Positions 3,383 through 32,187 of a stretch of 64,000 nt of DNA are shown here, piece after piece. The notes below the pieces were generated by a model. It was not told the DNA's origin. It ran no database searches and worked only from the letters and a program-made list of their open reading frames with translations. Each line of letters begins with the position of its first letter. Position 1 is the first letter of the stretch. The position numbers and the translations under genes were made by a program. This DNA is from Chitinophagales bacterium (GTDB lineage: Bacteria > Bacteroidota > Bacteroidia > Chitinophagales > JADIYW01): contig JAMLHH010000004.1 in NCBI GenBank assembly GCA_023957215.1, forward strand, positions 62,001 through 126,000. The letters are read 5' to 3'.

Positions 3383-4608
3383 AATGGTAATTCTATGCTA
3401 ATGGATGTACCTTCATTAGCGACTGATTGAATATTAATTTGCCCTCCTATTAAGTTCATATATCTTTTTACTATATAAAGCCCCAAACCGGTTCCTTGGA
3501 TATTCTGTACGTTGCTTGCCCTAAAAAATCTGATAAAAAGTCTTTTTTGTTCTGCTTCCGGTATGCCCACTCCGTTATCTTTAACTGTGAGAATGACAGA
3601 TTTTTGTTTTTTCTCTGTGGTGACTACTATCAACCCATCGACAGGGCTAAATTTTATTGCATTGGATAAAAGGTTAGAGAAGGCAATTTTTAAAAGATGC
3701 TTATCAGTGATAATGGTAGCAGAACCTTTATTAATCAGTTCTATTTTTTGATGTGATTTTGATAGTTCACGCATCTCCACCACAATATTTTCCACCTCTG
3801 TGTAAACATCAAATTCTTCAAAATTGAGTTTGATAAGTCCTTCTTCTATTCGCCCGATAGATAAAAAGTCATCTAATACGGAATTGAGGTGTTCGACGGA
3901 GGATTTTATTCTATTAATATGTTTATCGCATTTGTCGATTTGACCACTTTCTAAATATCTATGGATGAGGCTGGCAGAAGAAAGGATGGTACTCAAAGGT
4001 GTTCTAAACTCGTGAGAGGCCATACTGACAAATCTTGACTTCAATTCACCCAGTTCTTTCTCTTTTGTCAGTGCATCTTTAATTTCATTTCTGGAAGCCC
4101 GTAGTTCTTGCAAAGTAGCTTTGAGGGTAAAAGTTCTCGCCTCTACTTTTTCTTCAAGTTCTTGATTGAGAAGTTGGAGTTCTTGTTTGACAAGTTCGAG
4201 TTTTTGATTTTGTTTTTTTAGTTCTTCTTCCCATTTCTTCCTCAGCGTAATATCCACAATAAAAGAAGTTGTATATCTTTCACCATCTTTTTCAAAAGGG
4301 TTGAGGCTGATTTCGAGTGGGAAAATACTTTTGTCCTTTTTCATACCATAGATATCCAGCCCCATTCCCATCACCCGCGCTTTGGGATGCGCATTATAAG
4401 CCGAGTGGTGGGCAGCGTGTTTATTTTTACTGTTTTCGGGCAATAAGTCTTTTATATAAAGCTCTAAAAACTCTTCCAAGTCATAGCCAAACAAGTCGGC
4501 AGAATAAGGATTTGCATCTATTATCCTACCATTTACATCTGAAATCACTATCCCGACAGATGTATTTTCAAATAAAGTTTTATAGTCGTATTTTACTCTT
4601 GACGGCAT
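3379..4608 (-). CDS. PAS-domain sensor histidine kinase
   Basis: A soluble histidine kinase of about 409 residues, with no membrane helices. Order: PAS domain (LFENTSVGIVISDVNGRIID, with DLFGYDLEEFLEL), a long coiled coil (QKLELVKQELQLLNQELEEK), HisKA H-box MASHEFRTPLSTI, then HATPase_c boxes (N-box LLSNAIKFSP, G1 DNGVGIPEAEQ, G2 GTGLGLYIVKRY). The ATG at 4608 (MPSRVKYDY) starts right at the PAS domain; a further in-frame ATG at 4653 would add 15 unconserved-looking residues that reach toward mdh. It overlaps the REC-CRP gene by 4 bases. The PAS ligand is not identifiable; a cytosolic signal is likely. Confidence 0.92.
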   Translation of the reverse strand: MPSRVKYDYKTLFENTSVGIVISDVNGRIIDANPYSADLFGYDLEEFLELYIKDLLPENSKNKHAAHHSAYNAHPKARVMGMGLDIYGMKKDKSIFPLEISLNPFEKDGERYTTSFIVDITLRKKWEEELKKQNQKLELVKQELQLLNQELEEKVEARTFTLKATLQELRASRNEIKDALTKEKELGELKSRFVSMASHEFRTPLSTILSSASLIHRYLESGQIDKCDKHINRIKSSVEHLNSVLDDFLSIGRIEEGLIKLNFEEFDVYTEVENIVVEMRELSKSHQKIELINKGSATIITDKHLLKIAFSNLLSNAIKFSPVDGLIVVTTEKKQKSVILTVKDNGVGIPEAEQKRLFIRFFRASNVQNIQGTGLGLYIVKRYMNLIGGQINIQSVANEGTSISIELPL

Positions 4609-24909: not shown

Positions 24910-25027
24910 TCGCAGCCCGGATAGCAGTGGTATCCTTTATTAGAGTCAAGTGTTTAGAATCAAGATGCAGTTCACTTGTTTGGCTCTAATAAAGATACAA
25001 ACGGATAGCCGGAAATGCTGCCCAAAT
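24910..25027 (+). ncRNA. Structured GGATAG element, copy 1 (possibly Flavo-1-like RNA)
   Basis: This holds GGATAGCAGTGG at 24919-24930, ACGGATAGCC near 25000-25010 and GCCCAAAT at 25020-25027. GCAGC (24912-24916) pairs with GCTGC (25017-25021), with CCGG/CCGG just inside. An inner stem pairs TTTATTAGAG (24936-24945) with CTCTAATAAA (24984-24993), and CAAGTG with CACTTG beyond it. The same conserved blocks recur at 28567-28650. From memory such elements recur in Bacteroidota genomes and resemble the published Flavo-1 RNA motif; the name is tentative. Both neighbouring genes are on the other strand. Confidence 0.6.
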
Positions 25028-25065
25028 CATGAAAGAAGAGAAAAAATAGAGATTTAACTCGTTTT

Positions 25066-26904
25066 CTATTGGTAGCCTTTTGCTTGTAGTTCAAAGAGAT
25101 TTGCATAAAGTTTTTTGTCACTCATTAACTCTTCGTGTGTACCGAGTTCTAATACTTTTCCGTCTTTGAGAACGAGGATTCTGTCTGCCATTCTCACTGT
25201 ACTAAATCTGTGACTGATGATGATACTGGTTTTCCCTTTGGTCAATCCGATAAATCTTTCAAAGACATCATATTCAGCTTGGGCATCCAATGCGCTGGTA
25301 GGCTCATCCAAAATCATGACATCTGCATCTTTCATATATGCACGCGCTAGAGCTACTTTTTGCCATTGACCACCACTCAGTTCTTGCCCGTTGTAAAAAC
25401 GTTTACCGAGTTGTTGCTCTATACCATCTGCCATTTCACTTACGACTTGATGCGCCAAACTTTTTGCAGCAGCATCTTCAATTAAAGCATCGTTTTGTAC
25501 TTCTTCGATTTTACCTACAGCGATATTTTCTCTTAAAGTAAACTCATATTTAAAGAAGTCTTGGAAAATCACACCAAAACGATCGCGATACTCATCTACA
25601 TCAAAGCGGTTGATATTGATTCCATCTAGTAAAATCTCACCTTTTGTAGGTTCGTAAAATCTTAGAAACAACTTGATTAAAGTAGTTTTACCTGCACCGT
25701 TTTGACCTACGAAAGCCATTTTTTCTCCGGCTTTTAAATCAAAAGCGACACCTTTTAAAACTTCTTCTTCCATACCGGGATATGAAAAGTGTAAATCCCT
25801 CACCTCAAAACCTTTAGTGATTTTTTCAGGTATCGTCATCTTTTGGACATTCAATTCTGCTACTTCCAAATCTATAAAGTCAAAGTAATCTTTGAGATAC
25901 AATGCACTTTCGGAGGTTTTGGTAAATCTTGTAAAAAGTTGTTGCAGATTATTTCTCAGTCTGTTAAATGAACCTGAAAGAAAAGTCAATTCACCTATTG
26001 TGATAATACTTGCCAATACTTGAGTGATGATAAATACATAAGCGGCATAGTAAGCCATTACGCCCAAAATATTGAAGATAGCTCCAAAAGCGTTTTGCCG
26101 GATAGACAGACTTTTAGTCAGCTGGTAATATTTATCGGATAAATCTTTAAAACGATTAGCAATAAATGCCGTCAGCCCAAAAAGCTTCACTTCTTTAGCT
26201 GTATCACTATTAGCACCTATAAATCTTAGATAGTCTAACTCACGTCTTTCGGTCGTCCAACTTCTAGCCAAAGTATATCTTGACGAACTAAATCTCGTCT
26301 CATTGATAAATGAAGGAATAATACTAATCACAAGGATGATAATTAATATCGGAGCAAAATATATCAAACCTGCAATCAAGGTAGTAATCGTAATCAAGCC
26401 TTCTATTTGGCTTAGAATATTACTCATCAAATCCACTCTTCTATTGGTCTGGGTACGAGCACGTTCGAGTTTATCGTAGAAATCCGGATCTTCGAGTTGT
26501 GCGATACTGAGCTCACTCGTTTTCCTAATAATTTTTTCTGAAGAGATATTGCTATACATATCTCCCATCAGGCCATCTGTCAGATTGATCACTCTGCCGA
26601 GAATATCGGACAAAATAACGATTACAAATTCTACTGCTACATATAACCAAAGTTGGTGGAGATTTCTTTCGCTCAAACTCAATTGGTGTATGACTTCATC
26701 AATAATGAGCTTGCCCGTCCATAAAATCAATACTGTTGAAAATGCATTGATGAGACGTGCTATGATATTTGTAATAAATAAAACCGGACTGATCTGATAA
26801 ATTTCAGAAAAAAATCCAGGTATCGACTTCATCGCTTTGAAAGTGTCTTTAAAGGAAGTCGTGTTGTTCTGCTCTGTGATAGATTTAAATACTCTTTTTG
26901 CCAA
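25066..26904 (-). CDS. ABC exporter, fused permease and ATPase
   Basis: 612 residues. The N-terminal type I exporter membrane domain spans about residues 35-335 with around six helices (VLFITNIIARLINAFSTVLI; LITITTLIAGLIYFAPILII). The ATPase domain has Walker A GQNGAGKTTL, signature LSGGQWQKVALARAYM, Walker B DADVMILDEPTSALD and the switch His in IIISHRFSTV. It would act as a homodimer exporting a lipid, peptide or drug; the substrate is not predictable. It is a single-gene unit between the structured element and the DUF4143 ATPase gene. Confidence 0.93.
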   Translation of the reverse strand: MAKRVFKSITEQNNTTSFKDTFKAMKSIPGFFSEIYQISPVLFITNIIARLINAFSTVLILWTGKLIIDEVIHQLSLSERNLHQLWLYVAVEFVIVILSDILGRVINLTDGLMGDMYSNISSEKIIRKTSELSIAQLEDPDFYDKLERARTQTNRRVDLMSNILSQIEGLITITTLIAGLIYFAPILIIILVISIIPSFINETRFSSSRYTLARSWTTERRELDYLRFIGANSDTAKEVKLFGLTAFIANRFKDLSDKYYQLTKSLSIRQNAFGAIFNILGVMAYYAAYVFIITQVLASIITIGELTFLSGSFNRLRNNLQQLFTRFTKTSESALYLKDYFDFIDLEVAELNVQKMTIPEKITKGFEVRDLHFSYPGMEEEVLKGVAFDLKAGEKMAFVGQNGAGKTTLIKLFLRFYEPTKGEILLDGININRFDVDEYRDRFGVIFQDFFKYEFTLRENIAVGKIEEVQNDALIEDAAAKSLAHQVVSEMADGIEQQLGKRFYNGQELSGGQWQKVALARAYMKDADVMILDEPTSALDAQAEYDVFERFIGLTKGKTSIIISHRFSTVRMADRILVLKDGKVLELGTHEELMSDKKLYANLFELQAKGYQ

Positions 26905-27088
26905 TAGTTTATCTTTTTGAAATCACTTTTAACATATATCATGCCGTAAATAGATGAATGAATATTGTCTCTATACTAAGATCTCCTCTTTAAGGTCAAA
27001 AATCTTTTTTCAAAAGATTCATAAGAAGCATAAGAAATGAAAAAAGTTAAAAGCACACTATCATTATGTTAAACTTGTAGGCAAAAGG

Positions 27089-28357
27089 TTAATCTTTTAG
27101 GCAACCAATGGGTACAACTAACACGCCATCCTTTCGTCTATATGCATATTCTCCTCCTGTTACTACCATTAAAAACGAAGGCGAAGACATTGTCTTTTTG
27201 TTTACTTTATCTTTTAATGTCAATAGATTTTGTGCGGCTTCTTCGATTTGCTTTTGTCCTAATTTCACTTCAACAGCTCCCCATCTACCATCATTTAGAC
27301 GAATGATTAAGTCCGCTTCTAGCTCATTTTTATCTCGATAGTGTAAAACGCTACCGTCATTTGTTTGGGCATAAACACGCATATCTCTTGCGCATAAAGA
27401 TTCGAATAAAAGTCCGAAATATTGAAAGTCTTTTAATAGTCCATCTGGATTTGTACGCATCACTGCTACAGCCAAAGATGGATCAACAAAATGGCGTTTT
27501 GGAGAAGTTCTAATAGCAGTTTTTGATCTTAAAGAAGGACTCCAAGCTTGCAAATCTTCTACTACAAAAATTCTTTGTAATGCATCTATGTACTGAGCAA
27601 TAGTTTTATCAGAAAGGGTGCTGCCTTGTGCTTCAATATCATCTTTTATAGTTTGGAAGTTTGCCATAGTCGTAATATTCCTTGCAAATGAGCGCATAAG
27701 CAAACGAACTCTTTCCGGACCTTTTTGTACTTGGTCCACTTCAGAAATATCATAATTGATAACTGCTTCCACGTAGTCTATTGCAACTTTTAGTGCTTGT
27801 TTTTCATTGAGGCCGATACTTGCAGGCCATCCGCCTCTACATATTGCAAATGCAATATCTTTAATCGTTAAATTTGATTTCTCTGCAATGTCATGTTCTT
27901 CGTTGAATAATTGCATTAAAGATACTTTTCCGTTGGATTCTTTTGACTCAAACAGACTCATGGGGCGCATCCGTATTCTCGAAATTCTACCTGTACCTGT
28001 ATGTGCAGTGACGTTGTCAGAAGGTACTGCGGAACCAGTCAAAATAAACAGACCTTTTTCAGCTCGTCTATCTACTTCGAATCTTACCGCATCCCAAAGA
28101 ACAGGCGCCATTTGCCATTCATCGATTAGGCGTGGATTATCTCCTTTTAATAATAGCGATGGTTGTGTTTCTGCAAGAAGTAAATTTCCTGGTCCTGTGT
28201 CTGGGTCTTGCATATAAAGCGCACTATTAGCTGCATTTTGAGCTGTAGATGTCTTTCCACACCATTTTGCTCCTTCAATTAAGACAGCACCTGATGCTTC
28301 CAAGGAGAATTTTAACTCCTTATCGCATACTCTATTTAAATAACCTGCTTTCCCCAT
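27089..28357 (-). CDS. AAA_14/DUF4143 ATP-binding protein
   Basis: 422 residues. The N-terminal AAA-type ATPase has Walker A EGAKWCGKTSTAQNAANSA, Walker B-like LIDEWQMAPVLWDAVR and sensor KGLFILTGSAVPS. The C-terminal DUF4143 domain contains the restriction-endonuclease-like core DKNELEADLIIRLNDGRWGA followed by VEVKLGQKQ. This family is very common, often horizontally spread, and has no established function. A canonical promoter lies just upstream. It is flanked by a tandem repeat and a structured element on the 5' side. Confidence 0.92.
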   Translation of the reverse strand: MGKAGYLNRVCDKELKFSLEASGAVLIEGAKWCGKTSTAQNAANSALYMQDPDTGPGNLLLAETQPSLLLKGDNPRLIDEWQMAPVLWDAVRFEVDRRAEKGLFILTGSAVPSDNVTAHTGTGRISRIRMRPMSLFESKESNGKVSLMQLFNEEHDIAEKSNLTIKDIAFAICRGGWPASIGLNEKQALKVAIDYVEAVINYDISEVDQVQKGPERVRLLMRSFARNITTMANFQTIKDDIEAQGSTLSDKTIAQYIDALQRIFVVEDLQAWSPSLRSKTAIRTSPKRHFVDPSLAVAVMRTNPDGLLKDFQYFGLLFESLCARDMRVYAQTNDGSVLHYRDKNELEADLIIRLNDGRWGAVEVKLGQKQIEEAAQNLLTLKDKVNKKTMSSPSFLMVVTGGEYAYRRKDGVLVVPIGCLKD

Positions 28358-28377
28358 ATTTATGACTGATTAACAAG

Positions 28378-28408
28378 CAAATATAGAGCATTTTATTTAT
28401 ATTACAAA
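28378..28408 (-). promoter_or_regulatory. Consensus Bacteroidota promoter for the DUF4143 ATPase gene
   Basis: On the minus strand TTTG (complement of 28405-28408) is followed by exactly 19 bases and then TATATTTG (complement of 28378-28385), a perfect TTTG-N19-TAnnTTTG promoter. Transcription would begin about 15 bases before the ATG at 28357. It is the best promoter match seen in the window. Confidence 0.7.
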
Positions 28409-28413
28409 TATAG

Positions 28414-28475
28414 ACTTCCGAGTTTGGCTGTGTTTTACTTCCGAGTTTGGCTGTGTTTTACTTCCGAGTTTGGCC
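28414..28475. repeat. 2.7 tandem copies of a 23-bp unit
   Basis: Two exact 23-bp units start at 28414 and 28437, followed by a partial third at 28460-28475. Each unit starts ACTTCCGAGTTTGGC and continues TGTGTTTT. It lies directly upstream of the -33 box of the DUF4143 ATPase promoter, so it may affect that promoter. Confidence 0.9.
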
Positions 28476-28566
28476 TTGGTTTTGTCTATAGCATTTGTAA
28501 TAAAAATATCTCTTTGATAAAAACTTCAACATATTGACTTATGACTAATCAACTTACAACTTTTAC

Positions 28567-28650
28567 CTGCGTGAGGGATAGTAGTGGATAGCCCACAGCG
28601 AGGTACGAGCGAGGACTATGAACGGATAGCCCGCTCGCACGCCCAAATAA
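28567..28650 (+). ncRNA. Structured GGATAG element, copy 2 (possibly Flavo-1-like RNA)
   Basis: This shares with copy 1 the blocks GGATAGTAGTGG (28575-28586), ACGGATAGCC (28622-28631) and GCCCAAAT (28641-28648) in the same order. GCGTG (28569-28573) pairs with CACGC (28638-28642), closing the element. The middle is unrelated to that of copy 1 and carries AGCGAGGTACGAGCGAGG. It lies on the same strand as argB, ending about 50 bases before its ATG, so it could be in the argB leader or be a stand-alone RNA. Confidence 0.6.
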
Positions 28651-31049: not shown

Positions 31050-31140
31050 GATTTTTCATTTGCATCATTTTTTTATTTTATCGAAACAACGAGAAGGTAA
31101 ATGACTAAAAAGAGATTGAGAATGTAGTATTTAAGTAACA

Positions 31141-32187
31141 ATGGTAAACCCCTTCTCATATATTCGTACTACTCATTGGTGGGCATATAAGGCTACGCCT
31201 GTATTGGGATTTATCTATTTCTACTGTAATTATGCATATATCCCTAATACCCAGCTCTTTTCAGTCATTTTCTCATTTCTCATCAGCTTTGTCGGTTTTG
31301 CAGGATTAGGTTATGTCATCAACGACATTTACGATATTCGCACGGATAGAAAAGCAAAAAAGTCAAACTCATTAGACGGAACAAGTTTTGGTTTTAAGGT
31401 CGGCTTACAGCTCTTTCTATCAATATTAGCATGGTCACCGTGGATATATCTGAGAATGCCTTGGTATATCATTTTGTGTCTATTAGGTTTATTGGGTTTT
31501 CTTCTACTATATTCTCATCCTTATACCAGATTCAAAGAACATCCGTTGTTGGGGCCGATGTGTGACGCTTTATACGGACATGTCATTCCGATACTTATTA
31601 CTTGTTTCACTTTTCAGCAGTATATAGAAGTTGTCCCTTATAATGAATGGGCATTTTATATCAGTCTGATTATTTGGCAATTCTTAAAAGGTCTGCGCAA
31701 TATTTTCATTCATCAAATAGACGATTTTGAAAACGACAATGTTTCAAACACCCGTACTTTAGTCACCTTAAAAGGGAAAGAGGTCATTTATCGTTTTGCG
31801 ATGAGACGGATTTTGCCTTTAGAAATCGTTTTTCTTTTTATCTTTCTCATTAGTGTAGGTCCAAAATTTAAAGGTGCATGGTTATTCTTCTGCTTATTTA
31901 TTCTTATTTATCGAATCGGACATGGTAAATTTAAAAAGCTTTTTGATCATCAGGACAATTATTATCTCTTCTTTCTCAATGACTTCTATGAGATGTATCT
32001 TCCCTACTATTTTCTTTTGTCTTTTTGTTTTAGACAACCGGTGTTTATTCTCTTTTTGTTAGTTCATATTTTAATGTTTCCCAATATCTCTAAAAGAGTA
32101 AAGACAGATGTCCTCACGGCTATTTTTGAGTTGAAAAACTTCGTGAAAGATTTTCTCTATACAAAACTAAGGCAAACCAAAAGATAA
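31141..32187 (+). CDS. UbiA-family prenyltransferase
   Basis: 348 residues with about eight or nine membrane segments. The two Asp-rich motifs of the UbiA superfamily are present: NDIYDIRTDRKAKKSNSLDG (near residue 61) and IHQIDDFENDNVSNTRTLV (near residue 195). These bind Mg-prenyl diphosphate. It therefore transfers a polyprenyl group to an aromatic, quinone-precursor or sugar-phosphate acceptor in the inner membrane. Standing beside a polysaccharide island it might make a lipid carrier, but this is an inference. It ends 2 bases from the convergent methyltransferase gene. Confidence 0.88.
   Translation: MVNPFSYIRTTHWWAYKATPVLGFIYFYCNYAYIPNTQLFSVIFSFLISFVGFAGLGYVINDIYDIRTDRKAKKSNSLDGTSFGFKVGLQLFLSILAWSPWIYLRMPWYIILCLLGLLGFLLLYSHPYTRFKEHPLLGPMCDALYGHVIPILITCFTFQQYIEVVPYNEWAFYISLIIWQFLKGLRNIFIHQIDDFENDNVSNTRTLVTLKGKEVIYRFAMRRILPLEIVFLFIFLISVGPKFKGAWLFFCLFILIYRIGHGKFKKLFDHQDNYYLFFLNDFYEMYLPYYFLLSFCFRQPVFILFLLVHILMFPNISKRVKTDVLTAIFELKNFVKDFLYTKLRQTKR

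Follow-up and report, generated by a model that had tools for sequence, protein, structure and literature searches.

Two Flavo-1 elements in a Chitinophagales contig and a possible mobile origin for a strand-specific folded repeat

Introduction

A 64,000 nt stretch of the genome of a Chitinophagales bacterium (assembly GCA_023957215.1, contig JAMLHH010000004.1, positions 62,001 to 126,000; hereafter the window) contains two structured elements that keep the same sequence blocks and differ in their stems, raising the question of whether these are RNAs serving the genes beside them or elements of another kind. The initial annotation read them as copies of a conserved RNA and likened them to the Flavo-1 motif (RF01705), a known but unexplained family that has been listed since 2010 as a small RNA (sRNA) without a function. 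In Weinberg 2010 it was rated ‘y’ as an RNA and ‘n’ as a cis-regulatory element (PMC2864571), Rfam classes it as an sRNA, and no function was found for it in the literature searched. Both window copies are true members of this family, one standard and one of an extended subtype below the Rfam cut-off, and the reading favoured here, with a probability of about 0.5, treats Flavo-1, including both window copies, as a folded repeat that is strand-specific, dispersed through genomes, and of mobile origin.

Identity and fold of the two copies

Copy 1, of intermediate form (24912–25027, + strand), was matched by the Rfam 15 model RF01705 at 24910–25019 on the + strand with 55.1 bits (E = 3.3e-9 over the window; gathering cut-off, 42 bits), while copy 2, of the extended type with a closing stem (28569–28648, + strand), reached 24.2 bits, under the cut-off. 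Relatives were gathered by whole-genome searches, and two further models were used: R1, built from an alignment of 13 extended copies that includes window copy 2, and R2, a longer Flavo-1 architecture from relatives that includes neither window copy. Within the window R2 matched two places only, copy 2 (72.4 bits, E = 6.9e-15) and copy 1 (32.1 bits, E = 2.1e-5). Copy 2 is a divergent relative of Flavo-1 by this independent model and not a member under Rfam’s own rule. Model searches of the source genome recovered a third copy, degenerate at its 3′ end (G000:C16:32485-32566, − strand; 41.2 bits with R1). The family named in the initial annotation was thus the right one; the Rfam covariance search that it had proposed was significant for copy 1, and both a significant match and a third copy, the absence of which it had said would count against it, were found.

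The shared blocks lie on the + strand in identical order in both copies, as first described, and the differing outer stems do pair. In copy 1, the 5′ arm of the closing stem (GCAGC, 24912–24916) pairs with GCTGC (25017–25021) in the covariance model (CM) alignment, the 3′ arm and tail CCAAAT together spanning 25017–25027. Its 5′ core GGATAGCAGTGG (24919–24930) supplies the 5′ sides of two 3x3 internal loops in the Rfam alignment and is followed by the 3′ core ACGGATAGCC (25001–25010) and the 3′ end block GCCCAAAT (25020–25027). The corresponding parts of copy 2 are the 5′ arm GCGTG (28569–28573), paired in the CM alignment with CACGC (28638–28642; with tail CCAAAT, 28638–28648), the 5′ core GGATAGTAGTGG (28576–28587), the 3′ core ACGGATAGCC (28622–28631), and the 3′ end block GCCCAAAT (28641–28648).

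Across relatives, the closing stem of the extended form occurs as GCGTG/CACGC, GCGTT/AACGC, GCGTA/TACGC, and GCGGC/GCCGC (GCAGC/GCTGC in copy 1), outside an inner helix, GGG-A-TA / TA-G-CCC, whose variable pairs all switch in step. There are two purine-rich 3x3 internal loops, GNA opposite GGA, and an apical stem that sometimes exceeds 100 nt, and a 3′ hairpin of freely variable length (e.g., CCCGATAGGG) precedes the tail CGCCCAAAT. Most of this hairpin has been lost from copy 2. Copy 1 links the two forms, its Rfam-type core (AGCC...GGAAA) being joined to an outer stem and a CCCAAAT tail of the extended kind. In the relatives’ alignment, 95.9% of cells were paired and 11 of 21 pairs showed two-sided change; this covariation exceeded all 500 shuffles and every slid register, a control that is favourable to the structure because the structure was drawn from those same aligned sequences. 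The traits of RF01705 (a conserved helix, two 3x3 purine-rich loops, an A.G mismatch, and covariation) were all present in that alignment. Flavo-1 as modelled by Rfam and the extended form share a core (GAU, GNA loop, GY, GGA loop) and the matching 3′ half, but the closing stem, 3′ hairpin, and CGCCCAAAT tail of copy 2 and many relatives lie outside the Rfam model, and copy 2 and many extended relatives can fall below its cut-off. The present analysis supplies a fuller structure and a detector for an extended subtype that Rfam partly misses. In one genome (G033, L151–L170) a Flavo-1 subfamily measures ~145 bp and conserves GAAGCGACCRGCGGAAGC as its apical motif, and contig ends hold many of the copies.

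Dispersal and orientation

Flavo-1 was detected at E 0.1 or better in 32 of 60 relatives, with 0–64 copies per genome and, within the genus of the window, 0, 3, and 6 copies. A scan of the phylum at E 1e-4 gave R1 matches in 32 of 198 genomes (RF01705, 28 of 198), and RF01705 matched none of 14 named control genomes outside the Bacteroidota. No element was found upstream of the orthologs of argB or of the alpha/beta hydrolase gene in two congeners, and neither window copy has a counterpart at its corresponding site there. Chromosomal copies had no orientation rule relative to genes (42 antisense, 40 sense; loci with one dominant coding strand), and in two closed genomes from another member group of the class the elements lay 16 on the leading and 12 on the lagging strand and 8 on each, respectively (24:20 together; placeable elements only, with strands set by GC-skew switch points). 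A lagging-strand or replication role was rejected for want of a strand bias in these two genomes. The chromosomal orientation result agrees with the transcriptome of Flavobacterium psychrophilum, in which Flavo-1 hits fall sense and antisense equally, many outside any transcript (PMC9723704).

The reading of Flavo-1 as a dispersed folded repeat of mobile origin is preferred because independent models place both copies in the family, because copy number varies so widely across the relatives and even within one genus, because the congener argB and hydrolase sites are empty, and because neither genes nor replication impose an orientation; it also draws on the strand-neutrality in F. psychrophilum (PMC9723704) and, as detailed below, on copies in unrelated plasmid families and phages and on homology breaks at the 5′ end of the element (p5482 and metH). 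One strand forms a bulged helix that contains two purine-rich 3x3 loops (GNA opposite GGA); in most extended-type relatives an outer stem of variable sequence closes it, accompanied by a hairpin at the side and a 3′ tail resembling CGCCCAAAT. Most probably, the folded single strand would be recognised by a factor of the host or of a mobile element, and copies would spread via insertion into intergenic DNA and then be retained, like REP/BIME repeats. We infer movement as DNA, recognition of the fold by a protein, and no specific role for the window copies at argB or their other neighbours.

REP/BIME elements are intergenic repeats of the gamma-Proteobacteria with a GTAG foot and a REP-associated tyrosine transposase (RAYT). 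Flavo-1 resembles them in being dispersed and intergenic, with a strand-specific fold and a copy number that is widely variable among relatives, but differs in having no GTAG foot, no RAYT found linked to it, and far more internal covariation.

Several observations weigh against a mobile origin. The metH copy is conserved in position in dozens of Flavobacterium species, and in each of the 30 plasmid records spanning most of the pBF9343 query a full-length match runs through the element, none having lost it. Both patterns are those of stable inheritance and not of restless hopping, and a local function is possible. No clean empty site with a target duplication was found, nor was a transposase linked to the element: counts of Y1 transposases (PF01797) do not follow Flavo-1 counts, and an element lay near 3 of 30 Y1 loci compared to 1 of 30 control loci of the thiamine pyrophosphate (TPP) riboswitch, which is not a clear enrichment. 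The Y1/RAYT transposase was rejected as the mobiliser on both grounds. Compensatory change in each copy further implies that the fold was kept long after insertion.

The random chromosomal orientation, empty congener sites, and 5′-end breaks move the question from which gene Flavo-1 regulates to the factor that recognises its fold and the way in which the element spreads, both of which can be tested in Flavobacterium and Bacteroides laboratory strains.

Transcription

That Flavo-1 is a transcribed sRNA working in trans, its copies being paralogous sRNA genes, is a tentative alternative to the dispersed repeat. Strong strand-specific structure and covariation speak for it, as do the conserved purine-rich internal loops, which are typical of RNA. 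Wobble G.U pairs occupied 5 of 476 cells in the Flavo-1 core compared to 26 of 510 in TPP riboswitches from the same genomes, in a Flavo-1 set that was selected by CM and for which a rescan blind to pairing brought in too many false positives to decide the matter. Among 240 cells from metH-locus orthologs, the deviating pairs were G.T in 5 and A.C in 1, a ratio in favour of RNA. The scarcity of G.U was dropped as proof of a DNA fold, given the CM-selected set, the contaminated rescan, and the metH ratio.

Against an sRNA, promoter and terminator patterns near the window copies did not exceed chance (sigma-70-like sites, 13 versus 14.1 expected; terminators, 1 versus 2.2 expected), and there was no match to a Bacteroidota-type promoter inside or just before either window element. 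The random chromosomal orientation also counts against it, as do the many F. psychrophilum hits in untranscribed regions, published data that do not clearly support stand-alone transcription of Flavo-1 (PMC9723704). Of the initial claim that covariation marks a conserved RNA, the covariation held up strongly; a conserved RNA is a candidate reading, Rfam’s sRNA label standing beside F. psychrophilum hits that are sense and antisense alike and often outside transcripts. The fold of this one strand matters, whether as RNA or as DNA.

Plasmids and phages

A consensus search matched 61 plasmids (Bacteroides, Phocaeicola, Parabacteroides, Butyricimonas) from several conjugative families and one Microviridae genome (MG945641, 22–93; R1, 66.8 bits). 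The conjugative plasmids and small phages that carry the element are open to manipulation. A second Microviridae-like contig (L297, about 3598–3660), with what we take from resemblance of the translated frames to be capsid, pilot, and replication proteins, has a copy directly after the replication gene.

It is rather unlikely that Flavo-1 is a single-strand-DNA site that serves plasmids and phages while they are single-stranded, e.g., as a priming site or an Frpo-like promoter of the plasmid leading region. The element is found upstream of an ArdC-like gene on pBF9343 (about 350 bp) and p5482 (about 720 bp) and of a RadC-like gene on JAB-type plasmids (about 270 bp), each time on the strand opposite to these anti-restriction genes; the leading region of CP126057, with ssb, a methylase, and AcrIIA9, is in keeping with this. 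The two copies on p5482 share a strand, as do the three on CP126057; the element occurs in two Microviridae-type phages, and one of the p5482 sites is taken up in other plasmids by another structured repeat. Placement in the leading region of the transferred strand fits pBF9343, p5482, and CP126057 if the direction of the relaxase and leading genes is the guide, the origin of transfer (oriT) and transferred strand being deduced from the direction of the relaxase gene. Frpo/ssi elements, single-stranded DNA promoters of conjugative plasmids, are the precedent (PMC11541004), and plasmid Flavo-1 copies resemble them in preceding, on the other strand, anti-defence genes of the presumed leading region. 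Flavo-1 differs, however, in being mostly chromosomal and in having no promoter-core similarity that was seen: the consensus lacks the TTTG/TANNTTTG core, and neither this nor a sigma-70 core was present within the window elements. Both Microviridae-type copies are on the strand opposite to the genes, which is the non-packaged strand, the copy on plasmid CP103200 is in reverse orientation, and chromosomes have no replication-strand bias. The Frpo-like promoter reading of the plasmid copies was lowered on account of the missing promoter core and the non-packaged strand.

On phage contigs, 16 of 18 scorable copies were antisense to genes (p = 0.001), some of the phages being related. This 16:2 bias was rejected as a rule, as it is inflated by related phages and has no counterpart in chromosomes. 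Plasmid families share a TACCTTA(N3-4)GGGTGGGTGGG-like motif immediately 5′ of the element (L257, about 790–830; L258, about 31128–31150), which may be an oriT or a protein site.

Homology breaks at the 5′ border

Homology to p5482 around its second element is of two kinds: in one set of plasmids it runs up to the 5′ end of Flavo-1 and stops there, and in another it covers nothing but the far side. In the plasmids that share only the far side, a different structured repeat (GGGCGAAGGGTAAAAAATACC...GGAGAGTGAAACGCCC) replaces Flavo-1. Carriers of this repeat include small Bacteroides/Parabacteroides plasmids and pBdorCL06T03-4 (L267, L268, L270, L271).

The copy conserved in place across dozens of species of what we take, from the translated frames, to be Flavobacterium is of the extended type and lies between two presumed metH genes. 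Alignments at this locus start within about 10 nt of the 5′ end of the element, and the ~370–1070 bp on its 5′ side contain different genes in different species, ending 31–250 nt (mostly <150 nt) before the element. Among the metH orthologs, the apical hairpin and the 3′ hairpin each have their two arms replaced in concert. The metH1–metH2 slot (L328–L347) is hypervariable and holds one or two genes, encoding small lipoproteins, unknown proteins of 86–190 aa, or a DUF1016 nuclease. In one genome (G314; L341, 272–430) a second Flavo-1 in the same orientation lies ~1.1 kb upstream, so that direct copies flank the DUF1016 gene.

From the breaks on p5482 and at metH, the 5′ border looks like a boundary of recombination. 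It is unlikely that Flavo-1 serves as such a boundary for the exchange of gene cassettes at its 5′ end, loosely like integron attC sites. In addition to both breaks, neighbours on the 5′ side were more often accessory or unnamed (15 of 30 versus 7 of 30 on the 3′ side), and in the window an AAA_14/DUF4143 ATPase gene (27089–28357, − strand; PF13635, PF13173) adjoins the 5′ side of copy 2 and was not seen upstream of argB in an ortholog comparison with the two congeners. The neighbour difference was not significant (p = 0.06), however; DUF1016 genes, seen twice beside elements, had an element near 2 of 30 loci (one of them circular) compared to 1 of 30 TPP control loci; no recombinase was linked in chromosomes; and the metH pattern is also expected if the element merely belongs to a conserved region upstream of metH2 that adjoins a variable gap. 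Given the neighbour p value, the lack of DUF1016 enrichment, and this alternative for metH, cassette exchange is not claimed. Equally improbable is the stronger form, in which Flavo-1 is a folded, strand-specific DNA site and single genes and plasmid modules are swapped at its 5′ border, as a gene-cassette boundary system unrelated to integrons; if true, such a system would be common to Bacteroidota chromosomes, conjugative plasmids, and single- and double-stranded DNA phages.

Integron attC sites are folded, strand-specific elements with RYYYAAC/GTTRRRY boxes that work with an integrase and form arrays. Flavo-1 is likewise folded, strand-specific, and found beside variable genes, but has no such boxes in attC polarity, no integrase, and no regular arrays. 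Resemblance to attC by motif was rejected, the box polarity being inverted.

Surroundings of the window copies

The initial description of the surroundings was accurate: copy 1 sits in a gap with both flanking genes on the − strand, and copy 2 ends 54 bases (initially about 50) before argB on the same strand. The proximity had hinted that copy 2 serves argB, but a cis-acting argB leader, with copy 1 leading a neighbouring gene, is very improbable and was rejected, since both congeners lack the element at argB, orientation is random throughout the family, and copy 1 has no nearby gene on its own strand. Between the DUF4143 gene and copy 2 are three near-identical tandem units of ~23 bp (ACTTCCGAGTTTGGCTGTGTTTT; 28412–28480), and a Bacteroidota-type promoter match (28408–28378, − strand) points towards the DUF4143 gene.

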